Assembly: GCF_016734805.1 (NCBI RefSeq)
Contig: NZ_JAERQG010000003.1
Span: 124,001-188,000 of the forward strand
Direction of reading: 5' to 3'
DNA: 64,000 nucleotides
Source of the DNA: Marivirga atlantica
GTDB lineage: Bacteria; Bacteroidota; Bacteroidia; Cytophagales; Cyclobacteriaceae
A program made the position numbers and the translations under genes. Positions 7,014 to 25,318 of the stretch are shown in pieces. Every line of letters begins with the position of its first letter. Position 1 is the stretch's first letter. The notes below the pieces were generated by a model. That model saw only the letters and a program-made list of their open reading frames with translations, searched no databases and was not told the origin of the DNA.

Positions 7014-7025
7014 TGACTTAAATCA
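7014..7025. promoter_or_regulatory. FNR-like operator (TGACTTAAATCA)
   Basis: TGAC-TTAA-ATCA matches TGAY-N4-ATCA, shared with six other sites in this window. It lies between the divergent hydrolase (start 6912) and the 192-residue paralog (start 7099), centred 79.5 bases before the latter. Flanks are less conserved (no CTG, no ATG) and only a weak promoter box (TGAACTTG, two mismatches, 54 bases from the centre) is seen, so this is the weakest of the seven. Confidence 0.5.
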
Positions 7026-7098
7026 CTTCTAAGGCTGCTATGGATCATAACCCTAATGACTAAACTTCCTGAACTTGTGAATTCAAAAGGAAGAAATT

Positions 7099-7677
7099 AT
7101 GCAGCGGATTGATTATAAATATGGAAAAGGAAGTAAAAAACTGAATAGTGATTCGTTAAAAACAACCAATAAGGCTGCACTAACAAAACTGATCACTCAG
7201 GCTAATATTCCCATCATACCGTTGAAGATTTTTAATGAAAAATTCTCTACTTCTTCACTCAATGAATTACATAAGCTCTTAAAAACCAACCATAAATGTG
7301 TAGTATTTGAGGGCAGTAAAGATAGCAACAAGCATACAGCCATTATTAAATATACAGGAGAAGAAGAGTATTTTGAAACGTTCAATTATTTCAACGCACA
7401 AGGTAAGAAATACGAGCAAGCAATAATTATTTCTCCCAATTCATTAAACAGGTATAAAAGAGAAAGAGAAGCTGATTTTGTCAAAAAGACTTCTCTGTTT
7501 TTTAGCAACACCAGTTTCATAAAATTGCAAATGGAAAGCGTACTGGAATTTTCTAATTTCGCCAGGCACGAATACAAGCCTATTCTTGTTTTGCCATACG
7601 AAGATTTGAAAGCTTATTTACAGCTATTGAATTCACAGCAAAACAGTAAAACAGCTATTGCAGCTTGCTTTGAGTAA
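7099..7677 (+). CDS. Unknown protein, paralog of the 14458-15078 gene
   Basis: 192 residues, soluble, no signal peptide or cysteine cluster, basic N-terminus. Not recognised as a named family. Its C-terminal 85 residues align with the 206-residue protein encoded next to ccoI: both share AIIISP, a KR pair, FIKL, a regular E/V/A pattern and LPYxxLxxYLQL near the end. Both genes follow an FNR-like site centred about 79 bases before the ATG. It therefore probably serves in low-oxygen physiology; the role itself is unknown. The N-terminal halves differ. Confidence 0.75.
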   Translation: MQRIDYKYGKGSKKLNSDSLKTTNKAALTKLITQANIPIIPLKIFNEKFSTSSLNELHKLLKTNHKCVVFEGSKDSNKHTAIIKYTGEEEYFETFNYFNAQGKKYEQAIIISPNSLNRYKREREADFVKKTSLFFSNTSFIKLQMESVLEFSNFARHEYKPILVLPYEDLKAYLQLLNSQQNSKTAIAACFE

Positions 7678-7686
7678 AACTCTGCT

Positions 7687-8283
7687 CTACAAATCGTAAA
7701 CACTAAAGCTTAAGGAAAACGCTACGGTAATATCCTCATTCACTTTTACCATTCCGAAGAACTTCTCGGGAGCTTCAATGCCAAAATCAGTAATGCATAG
7801 CTCAGGATTTCCCTCACATAGATAAGCTTCATCGGTTTTTTCAATATGGGTAGCTATGGTGAAATGCTTTTGAACACCTGCAATGTTAATAGCTATTTCT
7901 GCGTGGTTTTTAAGGCTCTCAATTTTATAAATGCCAATAAGCTTTATGTTAATGTAAGGATGTTCTTCAGCCTTTAGCAGTTTGCGAAAATCGCTTGTCA
8001 TGGGACTATTGTCACATTTAAAACTTTTAATTGGTAGCCGTAATGAAGCTCCTTTGATTTCAAGCATTTTTTCGGCATTCTTTAACGCTATCATTAAAGT
8101 ATCTTTGGGAAGACGTACATTGTAAGCACAACCAAAATCACTCACATTAGTAGTGCCCATTATTTCAATACTGCTTTTAGCATGATCAAAAACTATCATT
8201 TTTTGCTTTTGTGCTATCAAACCATTCTGAAAAGATGGCTGCAGCATGAGGTGAAAAAGAAAAGCAAATTGAAGAAATTTCAT
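7687..8283 (-). CDS. Exported YceI-like protein
   Basis: 198 residues from ATG at 8283 (MKFLQFAFLFHLM). The upstream ATG at 8310 is rejected because it lies in the hairpin that ends the preceding gene and adds a non-signal extension. The mature sequence (GTTNVSDFGCAY, SFKCDNSPMTSDFRKLLKAEEHPYI split over two stretches) resembles the YceI lipocalin-like family, including the 'MxxDxRxxLxxxxxP' pattern and a second strand near NIAGVQKHF. YceI proteins bind isoprenoid-type lipids in a beta-barrel. It is the last gene of the yceI-porin-yceI group. Confidence 0.7.
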   Translation of the reverse strand: MKFLQFAFLFHLMLQPSFQNGLIAQKQKMIVFDHAKSSIEIMGTTNVSDFGCAYNVRLPKDTLMIALKNAEKMLEIKGASLRLPIKSFKCDNSPMTSDFRKLLKAEEHPYINIKLIGIYKIESLKNHAEIAINIAGVQKHFTIATHIEKTDEAYLCEGNPELCITDFGIEAPEKFFGMVKVNEDITVAFSLSFSVYDL

Positions 8284-8299
8284 TGTTTTAAGGTAAATA

Positions 8300-8338
8300 A
8301 AAGCTGCCATAAATTATTGCTAATTAGATGGCAGCTTT
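8300..8338 (-). terminator. Hairpin terminator after the porin gene
   Basis: An 11-bp perfect inverted repeat (AAAGCTGCCAT at 8300-8310 and ATGGCAGCTTT at 8328-8338, loop 17). Read on the minus strand it ends in TTTTATTT. It sits 20 bases after the stop of the porin gene and before the YceI-like start, so it could attenuate the last gene of the operon. Confidence 0.65.
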
Positions 8339-8357
8339 CAATGACTATTGGCTTTGA

Positions 8358-9617: not shown

Positions 9618-9635
9618 GGTTTTATTGTTTAGTAG

Positions 9636-10190: not shown

Positions 10191-10234
10191 TTCTTTTTTT
10201 TGGTAAAGGTGGGAATGATAAGCGCTCTAAACCC

Positions 10235-10246
10235 TGACATTTATCA
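10235..10246. promoter_or_regulatory. FNR-like operator (TGACATTTATCA)
   Basis: TGAC-ATTT-ATCA with the wider context CTGACATTTATCATGTT. It is centred 50.5 bases before the ATG of the YceI gene at 10190. A degenerate -7-like box (CACCTTTA on the minus strand, 10204-10211) is centred exactly 33 bases from the palindrome, the same distance as in three other promoters here. Confidence 0.7.
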
Positions 10247-10301
10247 TGTTTTAGGCTGATACTAACACAACATGAGTAATTCCATAAAACCAGCTTAAAA
10301 C

Positions 10302-10313
10302 TGACATAAATCA
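10302..10313. promoter_or_regulatory. FNR-like operator (TGACATAAATCA)
   Basis: TGAC-ATAA-ATCA, context CTGACATAAATCATGTT, almost identical to the site 67 bases away. It lies between divergent YceI (10190) and TonB (10421) genes. A box TACTTTTA (10359-10366, one mismatch to TAnnTTTG) is centred 55 bases downstream toward tonB, so this copy more likely serves the tonB-usp side. Confidence 0.7.
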
Positions 10314-10358
10314 TGTTTTTAGCTAATCTATGTTACGGAATACGGAGGTGAAACATGG

Positions 10359-10366
10359 TACTTTTA
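10359..10366 (+). promoter_or_regulatory. Putative -7 promoter box for tonB-usp
   Basis: TACTTTTA differs at one base from the Bacteroidota -7 consensus TAnnTTTG. It lies 55 bases (centre to centre) from the FNR-like palindrome at 10302-10313, two helical turns further than the 33-base spacing seen elsewhere. No clear -33 TTTG, as expected for an activator-dependent promoter. Confidence 0.4.
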
Positions 10367-10420
10367 TAGTATGAGAAACAGATCAGTTTTCTCGAATGTG
10401 CAACTTAAAAAGACACAGCC

Positions 10421-11119
10421 ATGGAAGCTAAAAAGAATCCTCAACTTGACATTTATAGAAAGTCTACCCTTTTCTTCAATATTGGTTTGTTCCTTTCTAT
10501 ATCATTGGTGTATGGCATCTTTCAGATAGAGTTTAAAGGTGATGAAGGCATTATGGATTTAGGTACTGTTAGTACGGAAAAAAATGAAATATTAGATATT
10601 CCACTTACACTACAACCACCGCCTCCTCCTCCTAAAATTCAACTGGCTGAAATAGTTGAAGTAGCCAATGAAGAGGTAATAATTGAAAACCTACCCATCA
10701 TAGATATGGAAATGCAGGAGAACGCAGAAATAGAAGAAGTAGCCTATCAGGAAATAGAATTAGATGCACCTGAAGAAGAAAAGGCAGAAGAAATATTTAG
10801 TGTAGTTGAAGTACAAGCAGAGCCCGTTGGAGGTGTAAAAGCATTCTATGCTTATGTGGCGGAAAGATTAGCAGGAAATTACCCACCAACTGCAGAACGA
10901 ATGAATATTCAAGGAGTGGTTTATATACAATTTGTAGTTGAAAAAGACGGCTCCATCACTGATGTTAAAGCTATGAAAGGCATAGGTGGCGGTTGTGACG
11001 AACTAGCCATAAAAGTGGTAGAAGAATCTCCGAAATGGATACCCGGAAAACAAAGAGGAAGACCGGTAAGAAGTTATAAAATGGTGCCGATCAGATTTAT
11101 CTTAAAGATGCGGGATTAA
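10421..11119 (+). CDS. TonB-family energy transducer protein
   Basis: 232 residues: short cytosolic N-terminus, one membrane helix (about 17-36), a Pro-rich stretch (LQPPPPPPK) and an acidic Glu-rich spacer, then the C-terminal TonB domain (about 140-232) with GVVYIQFVVEKDGSITDVK and a late ESPKWIPGKQRGRPV segment typical of Bacteroidota TonB proteins. It should couple the proton-motive force via ExbBD to outer-membrane receptors; no exbBD or receptor adjoins it. Followed after 41 bases by a universal stress protein gene, probably co-transcribed. FNR-like sites precede it. Confidence 0.88.
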   Translation: MEAKKNPQLDIYRKSTLFFNIGLFLSISLVYGIFQIEFKGDEGIMDLGTVSTEKNEILDIPLTLQPPPPPPKIQLAEIVEVANEEVIIENLPIIDMEMQENAEIEEVAYQEIELDAPEEEKAEEIFSVVEVQAEPVGGVKAFYAYVAERLAGNYPPTAERMNIQGVVYIQFVVEKDGSITDVKAMKGIGGGCDELAIKVVEESPKWIPGKQRGRPVRSYKMVPIRFILKMRD

Positions 11120-11160
11120 TGTCATTACCACTCAAATAACAACCAATAAATTTTAACAAA

Positions 11161-12069
11161 ATGAAAAAGATTTTAGTACCAACAGATTTTTCCAAACTAA
11201 GTGAATACGCCTTAGAGTTAGCAATTGAATTGGCTCAAAAGTTTGATGCCAAAATCACCCTAGTCACAAGCCTTCATTATGATTTCAATATAGAAATTCG
11301 AGAAGCAGCCTTAGTTACTAGCACCTTATTGAAGAAAGTTGAGGAGTCTGTTAGTCACAGCATGCAACAACTGGTAAATAAGTACAGCGATTCAGGGGTA
11401 TTAATCAATCATTATATCTCAGATAAAAGCTTAGTTGCACAGCTTAATAATAAAATTCATGATGAAAATTATGATTTGGTAGTAATGGGCACTAAAGGAA
11501 GCTCTGGCATTGATGAATTCTTTATAGGCTCAAATACTGAAAAGGTAGTTCGAAAGGCATCATGTCCGGTTATTTCAGTTTCCGGCAAAACCACATTAGC
11601 TGAGATTAAAAAGCTCATGATTCCAGTAGATTTGGAGGATATCAGAGAAAGCTTTTTACTTAAAATAGCAGAGCTTCAAAAGACTTTCGACTTAATGCTG
11701 GACTTTGTTTGGGTAAAAACTCCACATAATATTCAGAATGAAGTAGAAATTTCTAAGGAAATTTCTCTTACTCTAAAAGATAAAGGAATTACAAATTTCA
11801 GTTTCCATATCGTTAGAGCTGTTATACCTGCAGAAGGTATTTTAACTTATGTAAATGAAGCAAAAATAGATATGATTGCAATGGCTACTCATGCCAGAAA
11901 GGGCTTAGCCCATTGGCTAACAGGAAGTGTTACTGAAGACACTGTCAATCACGCCAAAATACCTGTATGGTCTTTTAAATTGGATTCGAAAGAAAAAAGT
12001 ATAAACCTTGAAAGTGCTAAAAACCTTTATGAAAGGTCATTTTACAGTGCGATAGAGATGCCTATTTAG
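11161..12069 (+). CDS. Universal stress protein, two UspA domains
   Basis: 302 residues made of two UspA-type halves. The first (MKKILVPTDFSKLSEYALEL, then VVMGTKGSSGIDEFFIGSNT) carries the G-x2-G-x9-G(S/T) nucleotide-binding-like motif. The second (about 145-280) ends MATHARKGLAHWLTGSVTE. Such tandem proteins respond to starvation and low oxygen in many bacteria. It follows tonB by 41 bases and ends at a strong bidirectional hairpin shared with the convergent CoA-transferase gene. The upstream FNR-like site supports low-oxygen induction, by inference. Confidence 0.9.
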   Translation: MKKILVPTDFSKLSEYALELAIELAQKFDAKITLVTSLHYDFNIEIREAALVTSTLLKKVEESVSHSMQQLVNKYSDSGVLINHYISDKSLVAQLNNKIHDENYDLVVMGTKGSSGIDEFFIGSNTEKVVRKASCPVISVSGKTTLAEIKKLMIPVDLEDIRESFLLKIAELQKTFDLMLDFVWVKTPHNIQNEVEISKEISLTLKDKGITNFSFHIVRAVIPAEGILTYVNEAKIDMIAMATHARKGLAHWLTGSVTEDTVNHAKIPVWSFKLDSKEKSINLESAKNLYERSFYSAIEMPI

Positions 12070-12090
12070 CATCTAACAATTGGATTAACT

Positions 12091-12120
12091 AATAAGAGGC
12101 AGTTAAAACTGCCTCTTATT
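12091..12120. terminator. Bidirectional terminator between usp and CoA-transferase genes
   Basis: Perfect 14-bp inverted repeat (AATAAGAGGCAGTT at 12091-12104 and its complement at 12107-12120, 2-base loop, so the real loop is slightly larger). It fills the 51-base gap between convergent genes ending at 12069 and 12121 and has A/T-rich flanks on both sides. Confidence 0.85.
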
Positions 12121-13398
12121 TTAGCTTTTTAATTCAAAAAAAGCCTTTTCTAAATTTTCTCTTTCCGAAGGATGAGCAATTGAAGTAAGCAGCTTAGCTC
12201 TTTCTCTCAAATTCTTACCAAATAAGTCTACAACTCCATATTCAGTTGCAATATAATGTACATGTGCCCTGGTAGTTGTTACACCAGCTCCGGGTTTTAG
12301 TGTAGGCACTATTTTACTTATTCCTTTGGCCGACTGAGAAGGCATGGCGATAATTGCTTTCCCACCCTGTGAAAGTGAAGCACCTCTTACGAAATCCATC
12401 TGACCACCTACACCTGAATACTGAAACCTCCCAATCGTATCTGCACAAACCTGACCAAATAAATCAATTTCAATAGCGGAATTAATAGCTGTTACTTTGG
12501 GATTTCTTCTGATAATGGCTGTATCGTTTGTATAGGAAGCTTCTTTCATATGCACAATAGGATTCTCGTGCATAAAGTCATAAAGCTTTTGAGAACCCAT
12601 AGCAAAACAACTTACTATTTTACCTTTCTTCACTGCTTTCATACTTCCGTTAATTACACCTGATTCCACTAATGGCAAAATACCATCAGAAAACATTTCA
12701 GTATGTACCCCCAGGTTCTTATGATTACCAAGCTTACTTAAAACTGCATTTGGAATAGCACCAATACCCATCTGAAGTGTAGCACCATCTTCAATCAATT
12801 CGGCAATAAAACCTCCTATTCTATCTTCTACTTCTGAGGCTGCTTTAATATCATGCGCAAAAATGGGGTTATCTACTTCAATAGCATGGTCAATATCTTT
12901 CATGTGAATAAAGCCATCACCATGCGTACGAGGAACTTGCTTGTTAATCTGTGCTACCACCATTTTTGCATTCTCCACTGCTGCCATACTTACGTCAATG
13001 GAACATCCAAGCGAACAATAGCCATGTGCATCAGGAGGTGAAACTTGAATAAAGGCTACATCTATGGGTAAGCGGTCATCCTGAAATAATTGATGTACTT
13101 CGCTTAAAAAAACAGGTATATAGTCTGCATAGCCCTGACTAATGGCAGTTCTCACATTACCAGCAACAAAACAACTGTTTAAATGAAATTTTTTACTAAA
13201 AACCTCCTGAACATAGGAAGCCTTCCCTTCTGTATGCAAATGCACTATATCCAGGTCTTCCAGCTCATCTGATCGGCTGATTAAGGCTTCAATTAAATCT
13301 GTAGGAGTCATAGCTGCTCCCTGAATAAAAATTCTATCTCCGGATTTAACACCAGCTACTGCTTCTGAGGCACTTTTTATTTTCGATTTATAATTCAT
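12121..13398 (-). CDS. Acetyl-CoA hydrolase / CoA-transferase family protein
   Basis: 425 residues, the usual length of the 4-hydroxybutyrate CoA-transferase/acetyl-CoA hydrolase family. Visible blocks: SGDRIFIQGAAMTPTDLIEA (N-terminal), DVAFIQVSPPDAHGYCSLG, the glycine-rich LQMGIGAIPNAVLS, the catalytic-Glu region VHTEMFSDGILPL and the C-terminal THARVHYIATEYG-like segment (TTRAHVHYIATEYGVVDLFG). It would move CoA between acyl groups, for example forming acetate or using carboxylates. Its promoter has a near-ideal FNR palindrome and a perfect TAnnTTTG box 33 bases apart, indicating strong low-oxygen control. Confidence 0.88.
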   Translation of the reverse strand: MNYKSKIKSASEAVAGVKSGDRIFIQGAAMTPTDLIEALISRSDELEDLDIVHLHTEGKASYVQEVFSKKFHLNSCFVAGNVRTAISQGYADYIPVFLSEVHQLFQDDRLPIDVAFIQVSPPDAHGYCSLGCSIDVSMAAVENAKMVVAQINKQVPRTHGDGFIHMKDIDHAIEVDNPIFAHDIKAASEVEDRIGGFIAELIEDGATLQMGIGAIPNAVLSKLGNHKNLGVHTEMFSDGILPLVESGVINGSMKAVKKGKIVSCFAMGSQKLYDFMHENPIVHMKEASYTNDTAIIRRNPKVTAINSAIEIDLFGQVCADTIGRFQYSGVGGQMDFVRGASLSQGGKAIIAMPSQSAKGISKIVPTLKPGAGVTTTRAHVHYIATEYGVVDLFGKNLRERAKLLTSIAHPSERENLEKAFFELKS

Positions 13399-13437
13399 GA
13401 TATATTTATGTATAGTTGACTACCAGTTAGATTGATA

Positions 13438-13445: not shown

Positions 13446-13464
13446 AATAGCAGTCCTTTCAATA

Positions 13465-13484
13465 AAGCTGATAATTATCAGCTT
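13465..13484. promoter_or_regulatory. FNR-like operator, perfect 20-bp palindrome
   Basis: AAGCTGATAATTATCAGCTT equals its own reverse complement and contains TGAT-AATT-ATCA (13469-13480), the classical FNR half-site pair. It lies in the gap between the CoA-transferase gene (start 13398, 76.5 bases from the centre) and the FNR-type regulator gene (start 13656, 181.5 bases). The promoter box at 13438 assigns it to the CoA-transferase. No T-tract follows, so a terminator is unlikely. Confidence 0.8.
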
Positions 13485-13655
13485 TAATATTTACTTTTTA
13501 CATTTTTGATTATTTTTATTTATCATCCTTGTTAAGCTAAAAAATGAACGAGACAATAAATAAAAAGTCGAAATTGCAGTAAAAAAATTAATGCAGGATT
13601 TTATATCACCAATCAAAATTTTACATTTATATCTGAAATTCTGAATTATTAGAAT

Positions 13656-14369
13656 ATGGCACAGAAAGTTAAAAGCACACCTTGTGAGTTATGCATCAAT
13701 AGAAGGAAGTCTTTATTAAAGGATGTACCGGATGAAGCACTTTGCAAACTAAGCCAGTCTAAAAAAACCATCGCACATAAGAAAGGTCAAATTCTGTTTC
13801 TGGAGGGTACTCAGCCAATGGGGCTATTTTGTATCAGTAAAGGCCATGTAAAGGTGTTTAAAACAGATGATTCCGGCCGAGAGCAAATTGTAAAATTGGC
13901 TAAAGAAGGAGAATTTCTTGGCTATAGAGCCCTTTTATCAGAAGATAACTACAACTCTTCAGCGGCTATTATTGATGAAGCAGAAGTTTGCTTTATTCCT
14001 AAGAGCAGCTTTACTGACCTGGTTGCTAAAGACACTGATTTTCAAAATAAACTCATGCAGGCGGTATGCAATGATTTAGGAGTGATGGAGCAGAAAATGG
14101 CTGATATGGCCAATAAAAATGTTAGACAGCGATTAGCTACTACATTACTTATGCTAAAAAGTTCTTACGGTGTGGAGAATGAAGGATTTACAGATATAGA
14201 GATAGCTCTCGCGCGCGAAGATATCGCCAAAATTGTAGGTACTGCCACCGAATCGGTTATACGATTACTGTCTGATTTCAAAAAAGAAGGCCTCATCGAA
14301 TTCAAAGGTAAAAAAATTAGAGTGCTTGATACTGAAGGTTTAGCCAAAGAAATAGACCTGTTTGCCTAA
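13656..14369 (+). CDS. Crp/Fnr-family regulator, FNR-like
   Basis: 237 residues: an N-terminal cyclic-nucleotide-type beta-roll (about 25-130), a dimerisation helix, and a C-terminal winged helix (ALAREDIAKIVGTATESVIR, about 184-205) whose recognition helix carries the E-S-x-x-R pattern that reads TGA half-sites. Cysteines are C10, C13, C30, C59, C112 and C138. By my alignment to E. coli FNR, C10/C13 match C20/C23 and C112 (AEVCFIP) matches C122; C29 is Ser19 here and C30 is extra. It is probably an oxygen or redox sensor controlling the TGAY-N4-ATCA sites around it. It stands just upstream of the unknown paralog and the cbb3 operon. Confidence 0.88.
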   Translation: MAQKVKSTPCELCINRRKSLLKDVPDEALCKLSQSKKTIAHKKGQILFLEGTQPMGLFCISKGHVKVFKTDDSGREQIVKLAKEGEFLGYRALLSEDNYNSSAAIIDEAEVCFIPKSSFTDLVAKDTDFQNKLMQAVCNDLGVMEQKMADMANKNVRQRLATTLLMLKSSYGVENEGFTDIEIALAREDIAKIVGTATESVIRLLSDFKKEGLIEFKGKKIRVLDTEGLAKEIDLFA

Positions 14370-14373
14370 AACC

Positions 14374-14385
14374 TGATTTATATCA
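14374..14385. promoter_or_regulatory. FNR-like operator (TGATTTATATCA)
   Basis: TGAT-TTAT-ATCA, context CTGATTTATATCATGTT. It starts 5 bases after the stop of the regulator gene and is centred 78.5 bases before the ATG at 14458. A one-mismatch -7 box lies 55 bases downstream. Confidence 0.75.
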
Positions 14386-14430
14386 TGTTTAGTCCTTAAG
14401 CATGTCAGCTTTTGATTAGCTAATATGTAG

Positions 14431-14457: not shown

Positions 14458-15078
14458 ATGGAAACATTACAAAGAAAATCTACTACAGTAAAGAGAAGCG
14501 ATTGGTGTAAAGCACTCTCCTACTATTCTGAAGATTCAAAAATATGCAGTGGTTGCCAATTATCTAAAAGTCTCTTAACAGACTTTGTATTACCCATCGA
14601 AAAAGCGAGCAAAAAACTAGAGAGTGTTGATCTGCAACTTTTTTCAAAATCTCTGGCTCAGGTTCAGAAACCTAGCATCATCAAAAAGCAAAAATCAAAA
14701 ACACCTACTTCCTATTTAATTTATCTTGATTCAAAGGCCAGCTTCTCACAGTTATTCGAAAGTTTAGCCTTACACCAGCAGGAAAAGAAGCCGGCAGCTA
14801 TCATCATTTCTCCTACCTATTTTTCAAAAAGCAAAAGGATAATTGAAACCAGGCTTGTAAGGGAGATTCAGCAGTATTTTGATCCAACAGGCTTTATTAA
14901 ATTACCCATTGAAGAGGTGGGTGAGTTATTAAAATATGCTAAAAGTCAGTCAGCTGAAATGATGATACTCCCCTATTCAAAATTAGCTGAATACCTACAA
15001 TTAGTTAAATCAACAGAATTAGAAGATGTAATGGCCGCAAGCTTCTACCCTATCCTTAGTAGCAAAGTCTCATCTTAA
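14458..15078 (+). CDS. Unknown cysteine-containing protein, paralog of the 7099-7677 gene
   Basis: 206 residues, soluble, no signal peptide. Not recognised as a named family. The N-terminus has C17 and a CSGC pair (C30, C33), a possible metal or redox site absent from the paralog. The C-terminal half (AIIISP, FIKLPIEEV, MMILPYSKLAEYLQLV) aligns with the 192-residue protein at 7099. Its position between the FNR-type regulator and ccoI, with FNR-like sites on both sides, suggests a job in low-oxygen respiration or its control; that is inference. Confidence 0.75.
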   Translation: METLQRKSTTVKRSDWCKALSYYSEDSKICSGCQLSKSLLTDFVLPIEKASKKLESVDLQLFSKSLAQVQKPSIIKKQKSKTPTSYLIYLDSKASFSQLFESLALHQQEKKPAAIIISPTYFSKSKRIIETRLVREIQQYFDPTGFIKLPIEEVGELLKYAKSQSAEMMILPYSKLAEYLQLVKSTELEDVMAASFYPILSSKVSS

Positions 15079-15082
15079 AAGC

Positions 15083-15094
15083 TGACAATTATCA
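15083..15094. promoter_or_regulatory. FNR-like operator of the cbb3 oxidase locus
   Basis: TGAC-AATT-ATCA, context GCTGACAATTATCATGTT, starting 5 bases after the stop of the preceding gene and centred 54.5 bases before the ccoI start. A -7 box lies 33 bases downstream. Confidence 0.8.
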
Positions 15095-15117
15095 TGTTTT
15101 ACTGAGAGTCTCAATAC

Positions 15118-17752: not shown

Positions 17753-19912
17753 ATGGCAATAGAACAATTTCAGTACGATAACAAAATTGTCAAGTACTTT
17801 ACCATAGCAACAGTTGTTTGGGGGGTAATTGGCATGACGGTCGGCCTTCTGGTGGCTATCCAATTATTTCTGCCGGAAGCTAACTTCGGACTTTCCTTCA
17901 CCACTTTTGGTAGGATAAGACCTTTACATACCAATGCGGTGATTTTTGCCTTCGTGGGGAATGCAATTTTTGCCGGAGTTTATTATTCTATGCAGCGTCT
18001 GTTGAAAACACGAATGTTCAGCGATGCCCTGTCGTGGATCAACTTCTATGGTTGGCAGCTCATCATACTTTCAGCTGTATTAACCTTACCTTTTGGTATC
18101 ACCACTTCTAAGGAATACGCAGAGTTAGAATGGCCTATTGACATCGCCATTGCCTTGATTTGGGTGGTATTCGGTATTAACATGATTGGTACCATTATCC
18201 GCAGAAGAGAAAGACATATGTATGTGGCCATTTGGTTCTACATAGCTTCTTTCATTACAGTGGCTGTTTTGCACGTTGTAAACTCTTTTGAACTACCGGT
18301 TAGCTTCCTTAAGAGCTATTCAGCTTTTGCAGGTGTGCAAGATGCCCTGGTACAGTGGTGGTATGGACATAATGCCGTGGCATTCTTTTTAACTACTCCT
18401 TATTTGGGTCTGATGTATTACTTTTTACCAAAAGCAGCCAACAGACCTATTTATTCCTATAGGCTTTCCATTGTTCACTTCTGGGCATTGATATTCTTAT
18501 ACATCTGGGCAGGTCCGCACCACTTGTTATATACTTCCTTACCCGAATGGGCACAAGCTTTAGGTACCGCATTTTCTATCATGCTAATTGCTCCATCATG
18601 GGGTGGTATGGTAAATGGTTTACTCACCTTAAGAGGTGCCTGGGACAAGGTGCGTGAAGACCCTATCCTTAAATTCATGGTAGTGGCAGTTACTGCTTAT
18701 GGTATGGCTGTTTTTGAAGGCCCTATGCTTTCATTAAAGAATGTAAATGCTATTGCACACTACACCGACTGGATTGTAGCACACGTACACATTGGCGGTT
18801 TAGGCTGGAATGGTTTCCTAACCTTCGGTATCCTTTACTGGATGGTGCCAAAAATGTGGCAAACTAACTTATTCTCTAAAAAATTAGCCAATACACATTT
18901 CTGGCTTGGCACTATCGGTATCTTATTTTATGCCTTGCCAATGTATGTTTCTGCCATTACACAAGGCTTGATGTGGAAAGAGTTTACTGCAGATGGTATT
19001 CTTCAGTACCCTAACTTCTTAAGCACTACCCTTCAGATTATACCTATGTATATGCTTCGTGCATTAGGAGGTTTATTCTACCTCAGTGGTGTAATTGTGA
19101 TGGTTTACAACCTAATTAAAACTGCCAAAGCAGGAGATTTCTTAGCCAATGAGGCAGCGGAAGCACCAGCTTTAGAGAAAAAAGAAAGTGTGGCCAGCGA
19201 ATACTGGCACAGAGTATGGGAAAGAAAGCCGGTTTTCTTTACTGTACTTGTTACCATCGCCATTCTATTAGGTGGTCTCTTTGAATTGGTCCCTTCTTTC
19301 TTATTGAAAACAAAAGATGTGACCACCATCAGTTCTGTGAAGCCTTATTCTCCGCTTGAGCTGGAAGGTAGAGACATCTATATATCAGAAGGTTGTGTTG
19401 GTTGTCACTCTCAAATGATTCGTCCATTCAGGTCAGAAACAGAGCGTTACGGTGAATATTCAAAAGCCGGAGAATTTGTTTATGACCACCCCTTCCTATG
19501 GGGATCAAAAAGAACAGGGCCGGATTTACATCGTGTAGGCGGAAAATATCCAGACTCATGGCATTATAACCACATGTATGATCCAAGATCCATGTCGCCT
19601 GGTTCCACTATGCCTCGCTATACCTGGTTATTTGACACCAATTATAAGCTGGAAGGAATCCCTGCCAAGATTGAAGCTATGCAAACATTGGGAGTTCCTT
19701 ATCCGGAAGAGTATGCTGATCAGGCTATTGAAGATGCAAAAGAGCAAGCTTCAACAATAGTTGAGAGTCTTAAAAAGGATGGAATTGAAGTGATGCCTGA
19801 ACAAAAGATTGTAGCACTCATTGCCTACCTGCAAAGATTGGGAACAGATATTAAAGGTGAAGAGATAGTAGCTGATGAAACTGCTGGTAATTCCTCATCC
19901 GGAGGCATGTAA
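17753..19912 (+). CDS. ccoNO: cbb3 cytochrome oxidase fused subunits I and II (CcoN-CcoO)
   Basis: 719 residues. Residues 1 to about 480 are CcoN, with about 12 membrane helices and haem/CuB histidines in RPLHTNAV, WWYGHNAVAFF, AGPHHLLY and AHVHIGGLGWNG. From about 490 a new helix leads into CcoO with one haem c site, C548-V-G-C551-H552, and downstream SMSPGSTMPRY supplying the Met ligand region. In proteobacteria these are two proteins; the fused form is known in Bacteroidota. It reduces oxygen to water with high affinity and pumps protons. Confidence 0.96.
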   Translation: MAIEQFQYDNKIVKYFTIATVVWGVIGMTVGLLVAIQLFLPEANFGLSFTTFGRIRPLHTNAVIFAFVGNAIFAGVYYSMQRLLKTRMFSDALSWINFYGWQLIILSAVLTLPFGITTSKEYAELEWPIDIAIALIWVVFGINMIGTIIRRRERHMYVAIWFYIASFITVAVLHVVNSFELPVSFLKSYSAFAGVQDALVQWWYGHNAVAFFLTTPYLGLMYYFLPKAANRPIYSYRLSIVHFWALIFLYIWAGPHHLLYTSLPEWAQALGTAFSIMLIAPSWGGMVNGLLTLRGAWDKVREDPILKFMVVAVTAYGMAVFEGPMLSLKNVNAIAHYTDWIVAHVHIGGLGWNGFLTFGILYWMVPKMWQTNLFSKKLANTHFWLGTIGILFYALPMYVSAITQGLMWKEFTADGILQYPNFLSTTLQIIPMYMLRALGGLFYLSGVIVMVYNLIKTAKAGDFLANEAAEAPALEKKESVASEYWHRVWERKPVFFTVLVTIAILLGGLFELVPSFLLKTKDVTTISSVKPYSPLELEGRDIYISEGCVGCHSQMIRPFRSETERYGEYSKAGEFVYDHPFLWGSKRTGPDLHRVGGKYPDSWHYNHMYDPRSMSPGSTMPRYTWLFDTNYKLEGIPAKIEAMQTLGVPYPEEYADQAIEDAKEQASTIVESLKKDGIEVMPEQKIVALIAYLQRLGTDIKGEEIVADETAGNSSSGGM

Positions 19913-19942
19913 ATGAATTATTGACATTAAAAAATTAAAATC

Positions 19943-20134
19943 ATGTTTAAGCATTATTTCGAACAATTGGATAATTTTCAAATCTACCCAATCATTTCAT
20001 TAAGTGTATTTTTTGCCTTTTTCATTGGGCTCATTTGGTGGGTAGTAAGGGCAGATAAGCGCTATATAGCTGAAATGGAGCAAATGCCATTGAATAGTGA
20101 CGAACCTCAAAATCCAAAAAACAATAAATCATGA
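19943..20134 (+). CDS. ccoQ: CcoQ-like small cbb3 oxidase subunit
   Basis: 63 residues with one central membrane helix (IISLSVFFAFFIGLIWWVV) and a short polar tail, located between ccoNO and ccoP as CcoQ is. Its stop overlaps the ccoP start by 4 bases. Sequence alone is weak; the call rests mostly on size and position. Confidence 0.8.
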   Translation: MFKHYFEQLDNFQIYPIISLSVFFAFFIGLIWWVVRADKRYIAEMEQMPLNSDEPQNPKNNKS

Positions 20135-21108
20135 AAACTATAGCTAAACTATTCTTACTTATGCTATCTCTTGTTATTCCTTATGTAGGATTCGCACAAG
20201 AGGTAGCCAGTCAGGTGGATGTTGAGGTAGAACAGCAGGGCTGGTTTAAACAACTTCTATCTAACGAGCAAGGTCAGATTCTTCTACTTATAGGTGCTTT
20301 TCTAATATTACTAATATTTTTATTAATAATAATGGTAGTGCTTCTGGCCAGAACAGTTTCTATCATCACTTCTGAAGGTAAAGCCGAAAAGGTAAGCTGG
20401 ACAACCAAATTAAAGCAAAGATGGATCACTGGTAAGTTAAAACCTGTGGGACAGGATGGAGACATGTTACTTGACCACAACTATGATGGTATTCAGGAAA
20501 TGGATTACGGTATGCCCCCATGGTTAAGATATGTCTTCTTAGGTACATTCATATTTGCAGTTTTCTATGTACCTGCATTCCTGATTTTTAATATTATCCC
20601 TGATCAAAAAACAGAACTGGATAATCAGATTCAGCATGCTGCTTTATTGGCTGAAGCAAGAGCTAAGGCTGGTATGATGTCTATTACTGCTGAAACAGCT
20701 GAATTTAGTGAAGATGCAGGTATTATAGAAGCTGGAAATGCTATTTTTCAGCAAAACTGTGCCGTTTGCCACGCCAAAGATGGTGGCGGTGGTGTGGGCC
20801 CTAATCTTACTGATGAATATTGGCTACATGGTAATGATATCAAAGCTGTATTCAAAACAGTATCGGAAGGTGTTCCTTCTAAGGGTATGATTCCCTGGAA
20901 AGGTAAGCTCAACCCAAAAGACATTCAGGATGTATCCAATTACATTCTAAGTCTTGCTGGAACCACACCCGCTAATCCAAAAGAGCCACAAGGAGAACCT
21001 ATTAAAAGGGAACAAGCTGAAGAACGGATTGATGAGGCTGTTGAGAATCCAGATATGGAAACTCCAGGCCCAATTGAAGTAATAACAGATGAGGAAGTAA
21101 CTCAATAA
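20131..21108 (+). CDS. ccoP: cbb3 oxidase subunit III CcoP, mono-haem type
   Basis: 325 residues: an N-terminal signal-like helix ending GFAQ, a second helix (about 45-70), a cytosolic loop with DHNYDGIQEMDYGMPPW (typical CcoP/FixP N-terminal domain), a third helix (about 130-150) and a cytochrome c domain with C210-A-V-C-H214 and a Met ligand near SKGMIPWKG. Only one CxxCH is present, whereas proteobacterial CcoP has two. A Glu/Pro-rich tail of about 40 residues follows. It passes electrons to CcoNO. Confidence 0.93.
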   Translation: MKTIAKLFLLMLSLVIPYVGFAQEVASQVDVEVEQQGWFKQLLSNEQGQILLLIGAFLILLIFLLIIMVVLLARTVSIITSEGKAEKVSWTTKLKQRWITGKLKPVGQDGDMLLDHNYDGIQEMDYGMPPWLRYVFLGTFIFAVFYVPAFLIFNIIPDQKTELDNQIQHAALLAEARAKAGMMSITAETAEFSEDAGIIEAGNAIFQQNCAVCHAKDGGGGVGPNLTDEYWLHGNDIKAVFKTVSEGVPSKGMIPWKGKLNPKDIQDVSNYILSLAGTTPANPKEPQGEPIKREQAEERIDEAVENPDMETPGPIEVITDEEVTQ

Positions 21109-21112
21109 TAAA

Positions 21113-22516
21113 ATGGACTTAAGTCAGGAAAATTTCAGAGGTCAGTTAGCAACCGTTGGAGAGAAAGGGAAGCGTAACTGGATATACCCTAAAAAGCCTA
21201 AGGGTATATTTCATAACTATCGTAGAGTGGTGGCGTGGTTGCTGCTGGCCTTATTTTTCTCAGGTCCTTTTATAACTATTGGAGGGCATCCCCTACTGCT
21301 TTTCAATATTTTTGACAGAAAATTTGTGATATTAGGTAGTGTATTCTGGCCTCAGGATACACACCTTCTTATCTTCTTACTACTCATTTTCGTAGTATTT
21401 GTACTACTTTTCACAGTAGTTTTTGGAAGAGTTTGGTGTGGATGGGCTTGTCCGCAAACGGTATTCATGGAAATGGTATTTCGTAAAATAGAATACTGGA
21501 TTGAGGGAGATGCCAATCAGCAAAGAAAACTTAAAGCTGCACCATGGACTTTCAATAAAATATGGAAGAAGACGCTTAAGCAAGTGATATTCTTGCTCAT
21601 AGCCTTATGGGTTTCTCATACCTTTATGGCTTACCTGTTAGGCATAGAAGAAATGACGGCTGTTATCTCTTCTGGGCCTCAGGCTAATTGGAGTGGCTTT
21701 GTTGGTTTAATTGTATTTACAGGAATATTTTACTTTGTTTTTGCCTACTTCAGAGAACAGGCCTGTACATTGGTTTGTCCTTACGGAAGACTTCAAGGTG
21801 TTTTTCTCGATAGAAAATCCATAGTTGTAATATATGACTGGCTTAGAGGTGAACCTAGAGGAAAAATGCGTAAAAAAGAGCCTGTACCTGAAAAAGGAGA
21901 TTGCATAGATTGTAGTTTGTGCGTACAGGTTTGCCCAACAGGTATCGACATCAGAAATGGGACGCAGATGGAGTGTGTAAACTGCACTGCCTGCATTGAT
22001 GCCTGTGATGAAGTAATGACAAAAATTAATAAGCCTAAAGGCTTAATAAGGTTTGACTCAGTAGAAGGGGTAGAAAATAAAACCAAAAAGTTAATTAACG
22101 CCCGTGTGCTGGCCTATTCAGCTGTACTTGTGATCTTACTATGTTCTATGGGTTTCTTACTGCTTAGCAGAAGTCCTGTTGAAGCATCCTTAACCCGTAC
22201 GCCAGGCGCTATTTATCAAATGAAAGGTGATAGTCTGGTAAGCAATATGTATCAAATTGAGCTTATAAATAAAAGTTTCGACTCTCATTTAATTGCTATT
22301 GAACTAGAAGAAGAGCAGGCTCAGCTATTTATGCCCGCTGGTGAAATTGATTCACTCAACTCACAGGATAAAAAGACCATCTACTTCTTTATTGAAGTAC
22401 CTAAAAACATAGCCTATCAAATGAATGAAAAGGCTCATGTAAAAGTATTATTGGACAATACGGAAATGGAAGTAATCAAAACGAGCTTTCCTATTCCTCC
22501 ATCATTAAAAAAATAA
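21113..22516 (+). CDS. ccoG: cbb3 oxidase accessory ferredoxin CcoG/FixG
   Basis: 467 residues. Membrane helices with GRVWCGWACPQTVFMEMVF and EQACTLVCPYGRLQGVF, then two 4Fe-4S clusters (CIDCSLCVQVCPTGIDI and ECVNCTACIDACDEV), a last helix (about 330-348) and a periplasmic immunoglobulin-like C-terminal domain. This is the CcoG/RdxA/FixG arrangement; CcoG is implicated in copper reduction for cbb3 assembly. It begins 4 bases after ccoP and ends 5 bases before ccoH. Confidence 0.94.
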   Translation: MDLSQENFRGQLATVGEKGKRNWIYPKKPKGIFHNYRRVVAWLLLALFFSGPFITIGGHPLLLFNIFDRKFVILGSVFWPQDTHLLIFLLLIFVVFVLLFTVVFGRVWCGWACPQTVFMEMVFRKIEYWIEGDANQQRKLKAAPWTFNKIWKKTLKQVIFLLIALWVSHTFMAYLLGIEEMTAVISSGPQANWSGFVGLIVFTGIFYFVFAYFREQACTLVCPYGRLQGVFLDRKSIVVIYDWLRGEPRGKMRKKEPVPEKGDCIDCSLCVQVCPTGIDIRNGTQMECVNCTACIDACDEVMTKINKPKGLIRFDSVEGVENKTKKLINARVLAYSAVLVILLCSMGFLLLSRSPVEASLTRTPGAIYQMKGDSLVSNMYQIELINKSFDSHLIAIELEEEQAQLFMPAGEIDSLNSQDKKTIYFFIEVPKNIAYQMNEKAHVKVLLDNTEMEVIKTSFPIPPSLKK

Positions 22517-22521
22517 CAATC

Positions 22522-22944
22522 ATGAATTGGGGACAAAAAATCACGATAGGTTTCATCGGCTTCGTAGTATTTATCATTGGCATGGTTACCATTAGCATGC
22601 GTACAGATTTCTTTCTCGTAGAAGAAAACTACTACGAAGAAGAACTAGCATTTCAGGATAAAATAGAAAGCAGAACGAATGGAACAGGCTGGCAGAAAAA
22701 TGTAAGCATTGCCAATGAAGAAGAATTTATTGACATCAACTTTGAGGATGCCGAAAATGTACAATCAGGAAAGGTATATTTCTTTAGACCTTCAAACGCT
22801 GAGTTAGATTTTTCTTTCCCTTTGACTGAAAACTTAAAATTACCAAAAAAAGAAATTCTTCCTGGTAAGTGGATTGTCAATTTTGAGTGGCAGTATGAAG
22901 GGAAAAAATACGTGAAGGAAGAAACGATTTACGTGGGCTCATAA
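22522..22944 (+). CDS. ccoH: CcoH/FixH assembly protein
   Basis: 140 residues with one N-terminal helix (about 6-26), the FixH signature FFLVEENYYEEELAFQDKI soon after it, and an extracytoplasmic beta domain ending GKKYVKEETIYV. FixH family proteins stabilise cbb3 assembly. It sits directly between ccoG and the TauE-like gene, overlapping the latter by one base (stop and start share A). Confidence 0.92.
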   Translation: MNWGQKITIGFIGFVVFIIGMVTISMRTDFFLVEENYYEEELAFQDKIESRTNGTGWQKNVSIANEEEFIDINFEDAENVQSGKVYFFRPSNAELDFSFPLTENLKLPKKEILPGKWIVNFEWQYEGKKYVKEETIYVGS

Positions 22945-23660
22945 TGTTACTCGCATCATTACTCATAGGTTTAAGCGGAGGCATGCACTGTAGTTTAATG
23001 TGCGGTCCTCTTCAGACTGCGGTATTTCATCATCAAAAGATGAATTTATCCGTAGTGCTTTACCATGCAGGGAGAATTTTAACCTATGTTTTAATTGGCC
23101 TATTGTTTTACAGTTTGGGAGAAGGTATTTCATTCTTAGGATTACAGAAAGTTTTTATATATATCATCAGCGCCTATGTTATCTACTTTTATGTAATACC
23201 CAGCAAATGGAGAAAGCATCATTGGATAGAAAAAATAGAGTTGATGCCCTTCAGGTTTTTTGGTAAACATCTTAGAAAGTGGAAATATAAAAACACACCT
23301 GCTTTCCGCTTTTTCTCAGGTATGCTTAATGGATTATTGCCCTGTGGGCTGGTTTATATGGCTGCAGCGAATAGTTTATTGGCCAATAATCTCCTGCTCA
23401 ATATTTCAGCCATGGTGCTTTTTGGAATGGGTACTGTGCCTTGGTTAATTGGAAGCCAATGGCTATTGAAACTTCCTTTAAACTTCAAAAGCTTAAATAC
23501 GCAAAAACTGAAACCTTATTTAGCTGCTATTGTGGTGATTTTCCTGTTGGCAAGAACTGTAGAACTTCCTTTTCTACATCATCAGCATATGCAGGAAACT
23601 GAGACCAAAGTGATTACCAACTGTAATGGTGATAAAGAAATATTTCAATGGAATAAGTAG
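22944..23660 (+). CDS. TauE/SafE-like (UreH_2) membrane protein of the cbb3 locus
   Basis: 238 residues with about six membrane helices. It starts LLIGLSGGMHCSLMCGPLQT and has a second half GMLNGLLPCGLVYMAAANSLL, the two repeats of the UreH_2/SafE-type fold. His, Met and Cys in the helices would suit copper or haem-assembly work. Proteins of this kind close many Bacteroidota cbb3 loci. The transported substrate is not known. It ends 5 bases from a convergent small gene. Confidence 0.8.
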   Translation: MLLASLLIGLSGGMHCSLMCGPLQTAVFHHQKMNLSVVLYHAGRILTYVLIGLLFYSLGEGISFLGLQKVFIYIISAYVIYFYVIPSKWRKHHWIEKIELMPFRFFGKHLRKWKYKNTPAFRFFSGMLNGLLPCGLVYMAAANSLLANNLLLNISAMVLFGMGTVPWLIGSQWLLKLPLNFKSLNTQKLKPYLAAIVVIFLLARTVELPFLHHQHMQETETKVITNCNGDKEIFQWNK

Positions 23661-23665
23661 TGTTT

Positions 23666-23878
23666 CTATTTTATTTCGTAGAAATCCTCATCAAAAGTTT
23701 TTCCGCAATGCCTGCCATCCTTTAAAATGCGTATTACCATCCATACAGTAAATAATGGAAGTGCTCCAAAAAGGATAGAAATAAAAGGATAAGGAAAGTT
23801 TAGCGCTATACTTATCAAATACAGTAAAGCGATAAAAGAAGTGACTGAAATGGGCCAAATGAGCTTTTTCATACTCAT
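23666..23878 (-). CDS. Small two-helix membrane protein, unknown
   Basis: 70 residues with two predicted helices (WPISVTSFIALLYLISIALN and PFISILFGALPLFTVWMVIR) and a polar tail ending CGKTFDEDFYEIK. Not recognised. It lies 25 bases after hemN on the same strand order (hemN is read later), so it is more precisely upstream of the hemN stop and convergent with the cbb3 operon. Length and composition look like a real gene, though no family supports it. Confidence 0.55.
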   Translation of the reverse strand: MSMKKLIWPISVTSFIALLYLISIALNFPYPFISILFGALPLFTVWMVIRILKDGRHCGKTFDEDFYEIK

Positions 23879-23902
23879 TTAACCCAATTAATTCATGAAT
23901 GT

Positions 23903-25255
23903 TTATACCGACTGGCTAAAAACCTTTTTTTCACTAAGCTTATTATTAGCAAGATACGGATCAAAGACAACACAAATATTCCTGATGAAGAGCATACCTA
24001 ATTCAGTTACATTTAAAGTATTGCCCTCAATTATTAATAAGTTATCATCCTCCAATGGCTTCAAATTGGCTCTTGCTTCATCTAGCCTTTCTACTTTATC
24101 TTGAAAATCATAAAGCCCATTGCAAATCAACTTAGATATAATTTCACTGGTTTCAACCTCCTGAAAATTCATCAAATGTCCTTTAATAATAGGTAGCTTA
24201 TGGTTATTTATACTCTCCTGATAAGCTTCTACGGCCTTTTCATTTTGAACGAATGCATGCTCAGAGCTGCTGATGGAAGAACAACCTAATCCAATCATTT
24301 GCTTGCTATTATCAGTAGTGTAGCCCATAAAGTTTCTATTAAGCTTGCCTAGTTTTTTGGCAATAGCCAGCTCATCTGATGGTAAAGCAAAATGATCCAT
24401 ACCAATCTGCTCATAACCCAGATCTAGAAGTTGATCTTTTGCAAACAGATAAAAAGAAAGCTTTTCTTCGGGTGCTGGTAAGTTACTTTCATCGTAACCG
24501 CGCTGACTTTTACTTACCCATGGCACATGGGCATAACTGTATAGTGCTATTCGTTCAGGTTTGTATTCAGCCACTTTTTCTATAGTGGTAGCAATACTCT
24601 CTTTGGACTGAAAAGGTAAGCCATATACTAAATCAAAATTGACAGACTCATATCCCAGGCTTCTAGCATCCCTTACTACCTTTTCTACGTTTTCCTCTGG
24701 CTGAATTCTGTGAATAGCTTTTTGTACTTCGAAAGTAAAATCCTGTACGCCATAAGAAACCCTGTTAAAACCTAACTCTTTTAAAGTACTAAGATGCTGA
24801 TAAGTGGTATTATTAGGGTGTCCCTCAAAGCTGAAGGAATGATCTTGTACTAACTCCACATCTTTTAAAATATGGCTTATTAAATCCTTAAGGTTATCAG
24901 GACTGAAAAAAGTGGGTGTTCCACCACCCAGATGAAGATATTTCAATTGCGGCTTATGATTGAAGGAATTTTTGTAAATAGTCCACTCCTTTTTTACAGC
25001 CTCAATATAAGGATGCTCCATTTCATGCCTCTTGGTAATTCGCTTATTGCATCCGCAATAGGTGCATAAGCTTTCACAAAATGGCAAATGAATGTAAATA
25101 CTTAAAGACTTATCCTCAGCAATTCTAATATCCTTATTAAGCACACTCAGCCATGTTTTTTGGCTCATTACTGCATTATTCCATTGGGGTACAGGCGGAT
25201 AACTCGTATACCTGGGAATGGCCTTATTATATTTTGAAATAAGAGACTGAATCAT
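23903..25255 (-). CDS. hemN: Oxygen-independent coproporphyrinogen III oxidase
   Basis: 450 residues, usual HemN length. The radical-SAM site is C60-ESL-C64-TY-C67-G-C69, the HemN-type CxxxCxxCxC. GGGTPTFFS (about 108), the EGHPN strand and a C-terminal HemN domain follow. It makes protoporphyrinogen precursor without oxygen, so it fits beside a low-oxygen oxidase that needs haem. Its promoter has an FNR-like palindrome and a perfect -7 box. Confidence 0.94.
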   Translation of the reverse strand: MIQSLISKYNKAIPRYTSYPPVPQWNNAVMSQKTWLSVLNKDIRIAEDKSLSIYIHLPFCESLCTYCGCNKRITKRHEMEHPYIEAVKKEWTIYKNSFNHKPQLKYLHLGGGTPTFFSPDNLKDLISHILKDVELVQDHSFSFEGHPNNTTYQHLSTLKELGFNRVSYGVQDFTFEVQKAIHRIQPEENVEKVVRDARSLGYESVNFDLVYGLPFQSKESIATTIEKVAEYKPERIALYSYAHVPWVSKSQRGYDESNLPAPEEKLSFYLFAKDQLLDLGYEQIGMDHFALPSDELAIAKKLGKLNRNFMGYTTDNSKQMIGLGCSSISSSEHAFVQNEKAVEAYQESINNHKLPIIKGHLMNFQEVETSEIISKLICNGLYDFQDKVERLDEARANLKPLEDDNLLIIEGNTLNVTELGMLFIRNICVVFDPYLANNKLSEKKVFSQSV

Positions 25256-25269
25256 TTATCTTTTTTTAA

Positions 25270-25277
25270 CAAAGATA
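25270..25277 (-). promoter_or_regulatory. -7 promoter box of hemN
   Basis: CAAAGATA on the plus strand reads TATCTTTG on the minus strand, a perfect TAnnTTTG. Its centre is exactly 33 bases from the centre of the palindrome at 25295-25318 and it leaves a leader of about 10 bases before the ATG at 25255. Confidence 0.65.
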
Positions 25278-25294
25278 GATTTGCCATAAATGGA

Positions 25295-25318
25295 AAAACC
25301 TGATAAAAATCAGGTTTT
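25295..25318. promoter_or_regulatory. FNR-like operator of hemN, possibly doubling as a hairpin terminator
   Basis: Inverted repeat of 10 bases (AAAACCTGAT and ATCAGGTTTT) around AAAA; the core TGAT-AAAA-ATCA (25301-25312) fits the shared consensus. It is 51.5 bases before the hemN ATG. It also lies 31 bases after the stop of the upstream lipoprotein gene and, read on the minus strand, ends in TTTTT, so it could form a weak terminator as well. Confidence 0.7.

Follow-up and report, generated by a model that had tools for sequence, protein, structure and literature searches.

The genome of Marivirga atlantica contains a stretch of 64 kb (contig NZ_JAERQG010000003.1, positions 124,001 to 188,000; hereafter the window) in which seven palindromes of the form TGAY-N4-ATCA lie within a block of 18.3 kb, together with a cbb3 oxidase operon, hemN, and the gene of a Crp/Fnr-type regulator (13656-14369). 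The question raised by this locus is whether the palindromes are the operators of this regulator, as proposed in a first-pass annotation of the sequence, which read the block as an oxygen-response island. Comparisons within the genome and with relatives suggest that this is probably the case: the regulator would bind the palindromes, sense oxygen, and activate genes for life at low oxygen.

The seven palindromes and their distribution in the genome

The coordinates and sequences of the palindromes, which start at 7014, 10235, 10302, 13469, 14374, 15083 and 25301, were exact on recheck. Judged against the program-listed open reading frames (ORFs), all seven are intergenic, and the N4 spacer is composed of A and T at each of them. 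They are also the only matches to the core TGAYWWWWRTCA in the window. The observation that the remaining gaps are free of such sites was borne out, as the six other matches to TGAY-N4-RTCA (19320, 28895, 46434, 54404, 55903 and 57241) are all located within ORFs. A C before the TGA had been counted at five sites; the recount gives six, of which four continue with ATCATGTT and two with ATCAG. The pattern TGAYNNNNATCA has 19 strand-wise matches in the window vs 6.92 ± 3.11 in shuffled sequences, with 19 being reached in none of 100 shuffles.

The sites were scored with a position weight matrix (PWM) trained on sites from the loci of other genomes, from which the window sequence was excluded. 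This matrix ranks the seven sites 1 to 7 in the window, and the next best match (13.2) is coding. In 20 windows simulated with a first-order Markov model the maximum score was 16.8, which is exceeded by six sites (18.3-21.6). Scores of at least 14.4 arise 0.75 times per simulated window on average, so that site 7014 is at chance level and, by score, indistinguishable from chance. This site is still plausible because a second core with one mismatch follows at +22 and because its neighbour para1 is paralogous to para2, a gene with a strong site in front. The sites are listed below, with offsets of promoter boxes counted from the site centre.

7009..7030, no strand: weak site TGACTTAAATCA before para1 (+) and an alpha/beta hydrolase gene (-); PWM 14.4; second core with one mismatch 22 bp downstream (+)
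10230..10251, no strand: strong site TGACATTTATCA between yceI-porin-yceI (-) and tonB-usp (+); PWM 21.1
10297..10318, no strand: strong site TGACATAAATCA before tonB-usp (+); PWM 21.1; degenerate second core at +22 (2 mismatches) and -7-like TACTTTTA at +51 (one mismatch)
13464..13485, no strand: site TGATAATTATCA in the divergent gap between the CoA-transferase gene (-) and the regulator gene (+); PWM 18.3; perfect TAGTTTTG at +29 on the CoA-transferase side
14369..14390, no strand: strong site TGATTTATATCA before para2; PWM 21.6; degenerate second core at +22 (2 mismatches) and TTGTTTTG at +51 (one mismatch)
15078..15099, no strand: strong site TGACAATTATCA before ccoI; PWM 20.8; TAACATTG at +29 (one mismatch)
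25296..25317, no strand: strong site TGATAAAAATCA before hemN (-); PWM 21.4; perfect TATCTTTG at +29

Across the 14 contigs (4.19 Mb) of the genome, 65 copies of the core compare with 42 of the reversed pattern, which by itself is a weak enrichment. Seven of these 65 sites fall in the 18.3-kb block vs 0.28 expected (Poisson P ~2e-8, an optimistic value since the borders of the block are defined by the sites themselves). The extended palindrome AANNMTGAY-N4-RTCAKNNTT (AANNMTGAYNNNNRTCAKNNTT) has nine exact matches in the genome, six of them inside the block, and a composite of operator and -7 promoter box has two matches with zero mismatches, both in the island (hemN and the CoA-transferase gene).

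Outside the island, 20 stretches of the same genome were inspected, which were picked by closeness to the pattern from 50 of the 65 core sites and from the extended matches. A strong site (19.0) is located on contig C6 at ~1,455,033 (L174 position 2533) before a gene encoding a Usp-like protein of 277 amino acids, which is likely a further target. Two weaker intergenic sites (14.5 and 12.6) face genes, and the remaining intergenic sites scoring at least 12 in these stretches face none. Operator-like long palindromes were also found directly past gene ends with no gene facing them (L175 position 2004, score 18.6; L182 position 1964, score 16.4); these are probably terminators. By score alone, only the five sites of the window at 20.8 or above stand apart, because other sites of the genome reach 15.6-19.0, nine of them in ORFs. 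Of the seven sites, six score above all simulated windows and 7014 is weak, and the likely usp target on contig C6 lies outside the island.

Conservation of the probable operator and geometry of the promoters

Loci comprising up to 10 kb on each side of regulator orthologs were collected for the best 80 of 527 confirmed relatives, with genes called by a simple ORF script; the nearest is Marivirga arenosa (74% identity). Between the genes of these loci there are 120 TGAY-N4-RTCA sites (9.05 per 10 kb). With the spacer changed to N0-N3 or N5-N9, the half-sites occur only 5-14 times each between genes (0.38-1.06 per 10 kb), the reversed pattern has four intergenic matches, and the N4 pattern in coding DNA reaches 1.03 per 10 kb. 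All but five of the 120 sites face a gene start within 450 bp. The genes behind the sites include the regulator gene itself (39 of 80 loci), usp (17), Usp-like genes (8), para2-like genes (4), hemA-like genes (3, by sequence reading), ccoNO (3), and ccoI (2). A looser pattern, AANNNTGAYNNNNRTCANNNTT, gave 390 matches vs 109 for its reversed control and is present in 60 of 60 family genomes.

As this sample is centred on the regulator, hemN and ccoI were tested apart. They were matched in 47 and 52 of the 60 family genomes, respectively, and the best 30 loci of each were used, leaving 29 after the window genome had been dropped. Within 300 bp upstream of hemN, 18 of 29 genomes have an N4 site; for ccoI the figure is 15 of 29. 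The N4 sites total 20 and 17, respectively, compared with 0-5 for other spacers. Beyond the family, 24 loci of the phylum, taken from the 67 of 296 genomes with a match, contain 20 intergenic N4 sites, distributed over 17 loci, and other spacers occur 0-2 times. The base preceding TGA is A at a frequency of 0.49, C at 0.25, G at 0.11 and T at 0.15 among the 120 sites, and across the phylum 34 of 40 half-sites have A. This gives ATGAY-N4-RTCAT as the consensus, with C being common in the family and T forming a minority (15%). In a genome of the same genus (G055), the regulator gene is located on contig C15, and ccoI and hemN lie ~67 kb apart on contig C24, each with an operator and an exact -7 box at +29. 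The regulon is conserved, but genomes do not in general pack it as tightly as the window does.

Promoters of Bacteroidota have a -7 box with the consensus TAnnTTTG (PMC9723704). In 113 site-gene rows, this box starts 29 bases past the site centre in 24 rows and 51 bases past it in 20, at a mean count of 0.52 per offset. If the first base of the box is assumed to lie at about -11, the site centre is placed near -41; this putative activation distance (about -41.5 in FNR) is read off the position of the -7 box. The peak at +51 results from tandem sites 22 bp apart, which is the spacing of 25 of 32 close site pairs. In the window, hemN and the CoA-transferase gene have an exact box at +29 and ccoI a box with one mismatch, while tonB and para2 have the +22/+51 arrangement. 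This geometry favours activation by a predicted activator of the class II type. The first-pass annotation had named equal site density in random gaps as an outcome that would count against an island. This outcome was not seen as far as the test went; clustering within the genome, enrichment of the N4 spacer among the 80 loci, sites recurring upstream of hemN and ccoI in other family genomes, and the fixed promoter geometry instead point to a genuine regulon under a Crp/Fnr-type protein.

The genes of the island are as follows.

7099..7677, + strand: para1, paralog of para2
7687-8310, 8358-9617 and 9636-10190, - strand: yceI, porin-like gene and yceI, with PF04264 in both YceI genes
10421..11119, + strand: TonB (PF03544)
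11161..12069, + strand: tandem universal stress protein (PF00582, two stretches)
12121..13398, - strand: acetyl/butyryl-CoA transferase family (PF13336/PF02550; TIGR03948 below cut-off)
13656..14369, + strand: Crp/Fnr-type regulator, 237 amino acids, with cysteines C10, C13, C30, C59, C112 and C138
14458..15078, + strand: para2, best called divergent universal-stress-protein-like; no Pfam or NCBIfam match
15143..17554, + strand: ccoI (named after its neighbours), P-type ATPase of the heavy-metal (copper) type in the cbb3 operon
17753..19912, + strand: ccoNO, fused cbb3 oxidase subunits I and II (NF011053 above cut-off)
20131..21108, + strand: ccoP-like cytochrome c subunit (TIGR00782, below cut-off)
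21113..22516, + strand: ccoG (TIGR02745 above cut-off)
22522..22944, + strand: ccoH-like, named by operon position, with homologs beside ccoG in relatives
22944..23660, + strand: DsbD_2-family membrane protein (PF13386)
23903..25255, - strand: hemN, oxygen-independent coproporphyrinogen III oxidase (TIGR00538 above cut-off)

The middle gene of the yceI set has no Pfam match, and "porin" is the label given to it by the earlier reader. The proteins para1 and para2 are 28% identical (E 3e-16) and are linked by profile to a family located after usp in relatives (96.8%), which in turn is linked to Usp (98.7%). Drift may have affected the iterative search by which they were first connected, and their direct comparison with Usp is weak (16.9%); both are best called divergent Usp-like proteins. 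Elsewhere in the window, the start of the ORF at 37314-38435 resembles caspase-like (metacaspase) proteins, by eye only, and a secreted-looking protein of 2103 amino acids is encoded nearby at 29547-35858.

The regulator, its sensor and rival explanations

The domains of the regulator amid the island (cNMP_binding PF00027, HTH_Crp_2 PF13545, and Crp PF00325) identify it as a Crp/Fnr-type protein; its gene borders the divergent gap shared with the CoA-transferase gene. Of the 60 family genomes, 51 have a match at E<=1e-30. Among 14 NCBIfam matches, the highest-ranking is Fnr NF008365 (94.3 bits, far below the cut-off of 228), and the best PDB sequence match is CrpPg 2gau (E 1.4e-31), followed by FNR of Aliivibrio fischeri and by GlxR/CRP proteins. 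With Foldseek, the protein matches CRP/FNR structures, among which the A. fischeri FNR structure 5e44 is found at rank 20 (E 1.9e-16, TM only 0.53). The residues E199, I202 and R203 of the recognition helix are invariant in 80 of 80 family rows, with Ile at the Ser position of FNR.

The cysteines C10, C13, C59 and C112 are likewise present in all 80 family rows; phylum-wide, C10 and C13 are found in 24 of 24 rows and C59 and C112 in 23, one row being truncated. C112 aligns with the central cysteine of FNR. A further N-terminal cysteine occupies exactly one of positions 30 and 38 in 78 of the 80 family rows and both positions in one, and in the remaining row it adjoins position 30. Phylum-wide, a cysteine is found at position 38 in 10 of 24 rows and at position 30 in none. 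C138 is present in 48 of 80 family rows. The best guess is that the ligands of an iron-sulfur (Fe-S) cluster are the four invariant cysteines, perhaps joined by the one that moves.

Several observations weigh against the reading of the island as the regulon of an FNR-like Fe-S protein. In the protein, the canonical CX2CX5C is absent, with CX2C and C112 being present and the third cysteine lying at 30 or 38; 14 of 24 phylum rows have no cysteine at either position, several having one elsewhere and some none; and the AlphaFold model (pLDDT 71, pTM 0.51) is too coarse for cysteine distances. In the genome of M. atlantica, the nine sites within ORFs score 15.6-18.5, and the composite of operator and -7 box with up to one mismatch has 12 matches vs 8 for the reversed control, which is near background. 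Score alone therefore does not define targets, and target calling needs position and the -7 box besides the score. In the window, a good box at +29 is found in just 3 of 11 site-orientations, and six of the 11 have neither this box nor the +22/+51 arrangement. In relatives, the regulator gene does not have a uniform promoter: TAnnTTT lies at +15/+16 in 18 of 41 rows and at +29 in 10, so that self-control may be repression in many of them. The loci compared are related, and their counts are thus not independent. Finally, a tie between the operator and the presence of the cysteine protein fails: the operator precedes hemN in 9 of 16 genomes with the protein and in 9 of 13 without it, and ccoI in 11 of 20 and 4 of 9 genomes, respectively. 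Neither this protein nor the second regulator type described below is found in 10 of 60 family genomes at the cut-offs used.

The most probable of the rival explanations leaves the operators as they are and concerns the sensor, with the regulator responding to redox through a thiol/disulfide change or heme instead of an Fe-S cluster. It is unlikely. In its favour, the canonical FNR spacing is missing, just four cysteines are strictly invariant, and PgRsp, a Crp/Fnr protein of Porphyromonas gingivalis, is reported to bind heme (PMC6955866). Nevertheless, a cluster is a better fit than a simple disulfide pair for a CX2C motif combined with a cysteine aligned with the central one of FNR and, in almost every one of the 80 family rows, another N-terminal cysteine.

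The genomes with the operator and without the cysteine protein led to a search in which a second type of regulator was found. In three of them (G011, G032 and G035), the FNR-like gene near ccoI encodes a receiver domain fused ahead of a CRP part (REC-CRP) and is adjoined by a gene for a PAS histidine kinase. The PAS regions of these kinases match FixL heme-PAS structures (best FixL E 4.9e-18, 1.5e-11 and 1.1e-17; the top match of the second is another kinase). A search of the 60 family genomes found REC-CRP in 27; the window genome had no match at E<=1e-70. In 27 of 30 REC-CRP loci the 4-kb stretch contains a kinase match, 13 via PAS and 14 via the kinase core only; three loci have none. In FixL, a His and an Arg residue have roles in the heme PAS. 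The residue aligned to the His is kept in 12 of the 13 PAS regions, three of which are the examples that prompted the idea, and the Arg is also kept in 11. The predicted heme-PAS thus applies to under half of the REC-CRP loci. Most of the REC-CRP loci (L254, L255, L256, L260-L289) are near histidine kinases. In a further genome, G009, a Crp/Fnr protein (L257 15962-16708) that is 44.6% identical to the cysteine form and has no N-terminal CX2C is encoded near cco genes and operators.

The REC-CRP loci contain 29 intergenic N4 sites, 22 of them in genomes without the cysteine protein, with other spacers at 0-6. Recognition-helix E and R are kept in 30 of 30 REC-CRP proteins and the Ile in 22 of 30; C59 is present in none and C112 in 8. 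Both types thus have the DNA-reading part and the operator in common, and the cysteines belong to the free form. In a tree of 58 rows, which were CRP parts cut by tblastn, REC-CRP and cysteine proteins fall on opposite sides of one branch. Both regulators are encoded in 9 of the 60 family genomes, REC-CRP only in 18, and the cysteine FNR only in 23 (Fisher P 0.009, for related genomes, with a cysteine-FNR cut-off of E<=1e-58 chosen after viewing the list and cysteines read only in the returned loci). The two types are thus only partly exclusive. These data suggest that oxygen sensors are exchangeable on one operator. In a broader form, this leads to a tentative proposal for Bacteroidota, which is judged slightly less probable than its opposite: one old operator, ATGAY-N4-RTCAT, with its 22-bp tandem form, would serve low-oxygen genes, and the sensor would be swapped between a free FNR-like protein with a new set of cysteine ligands (CX2C, two beta-roll cysteines, and a moving third N-terminal cysteine) and a kinase-driven REC-CRP, the kinase having a FixL-like heme-PAS in part of the genomes, while the DNA-reading residues and promoters would stay largely unchanged.

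Another member of the superfamily might also be the main reader of the sites in the window, for instance the second Crp/Fnr protein of this genome (contig C6 1422846-1423457), which is 26% identical to the regulator. The occurrence of the operator in genomes without the island protein, near REC-CRP with the same recognition E and R, points in this direction. This explanation is nonetheless improbable: the window genome gave no REC-CRP at the threshold above, the paralog (L259) is distant (E 1.6e-16) and too dissimilar to be given a row in the tree, and the operator flanks orthologs of the regulator gene of the island across family and phylum. A role of some palindromes as transcription terminators would agree with the position of 14374 and 15083, which start 5 bp past the ends of the preceding genes, and with the similar palindromes L175 and L182 past gene ends; it is made very improbable by the strict N4 spacer, the conservation before start codons, and the fixed distance to the -7 box. 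A chance cluster of AT-rich palindromes, for which the background of core copies in the genome and the score of 7014 could be cited, has next to no probability and is already contradicted for the six higher-scoring sites by the clustering of the extended palindrome, the Poisson value, the N4 specificity, the PWM ranks, and the recurrence before hemN and ccoI. Taken together, the results support the reading of the block as an oxygen-response island, from which we infer binding by the regulator and its dependence on oxygen.

Proposed mechanism and comparison with known systems

According to the proposed mechanism, the regulator would dimerise at low oxygen and bind half-sites of the form AAAA(C/G)(A/C)TGAY. 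The bound dimer would activate sigma-A promoters with a TAnnTTTG box from about -41, and at some promoters a second dimer would bind about two helical turns (22 bp) upstream. The targets would be the cbb3 oxidase operon, hemN, the CoA-transferase gene, tonB-usp, and a Usp-like gene, with the yceI set as a probable addition; in many relatives the regulator would also control its own gene. Oxygen would most likely be sensed by an N-terminal Fe-S cluster held by C10, C13 and C112 together with C59 and/or the moving cysteine.

Bacteroidota are a large marine and gut phylum. A literature search, with subscription journals and preprints outside its scope, found no operator for oxygen control in this phylum. 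With a consensus that can be tested, a defined geometry of the promoters, and a named regulator, such regulons could be read from genome sequences. If true, one operator served by either FNR-like or FixL-like sensors would provide a clear example from nature of a regulatory network whose sensor has been swapped.

FNR of the E. coli type has an N-terminal CX2CX5C, a central cysteine, and a recognition helix with E-x-x-S-R. Its dimerisation depends on an oxygen-labile 4Fe-4S cluster. It binds TTGAT-N4-ATCAA, acts from a class II position, and FNR proteins have the cbb3 oxidase and hemN among their targets. The regulator of the island shares with FNR of E. coli and A. fischeri (5e44) the CRP/FNR domains, an alignable central cysteine (C112), and the E and R of the helix; the palindrome with a 4-bp spacer, the targets cbb3 and hemN, and the putative class II position correspond as well. 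In contrast to FNR, the regulator has no CX2CX5C and has Ile instead of Ser in the recognition helix, the base before TGA is mostly A or C and not T, and the promoters have the -7 element of Bacteroidota and 22-bp tandem sites. Of the 13 TGAY-N4-RTCA matches in the window, not one has the T before and the A after the core that mark the FNR box. A search for the strict FNR box TTGAYNNNNATCAA with up to two mismatches was uninformative (277 matches vs 223 expected). The operator is distinct from the box of E. coli FNR.

In the FixL-FixJ-FixK system of rhizobia, the cbb3 oxidase is under the control of a CRP-type activator that is fed by an oxygen-sensing kinase. Relatives of M. atlantica likewise encode FixL-like PAS kinases, whereas receiver and CRP part form one protein in these organisms; in M. 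atlantica itself, the receiver-type regulator was searched for with the negative result given above and a FixL-like kinase was not searched for by itself. Within Bacteroidota, the regulator can be likened to two Crp/Fnr proteins of P. gingivalis, PgRsp and CrpPg (2gau); as a difference, CrpPg is described as a cAMP-independent Crp homolog and PgRsp as heme-binding. In Flavobacterium psychrophilum, genes for the cbb3 oxidase and heme synthesis are reported to rise together under oxygen limitation, in a study whose main text contains neither "fnr" nor "palindrom" (PMC9723704). Overall, the system seems to vary the FNR scheme in its operator, its cysteines, and the spacing of its promoters, and in some relatives the sensor seems to have been replaced.

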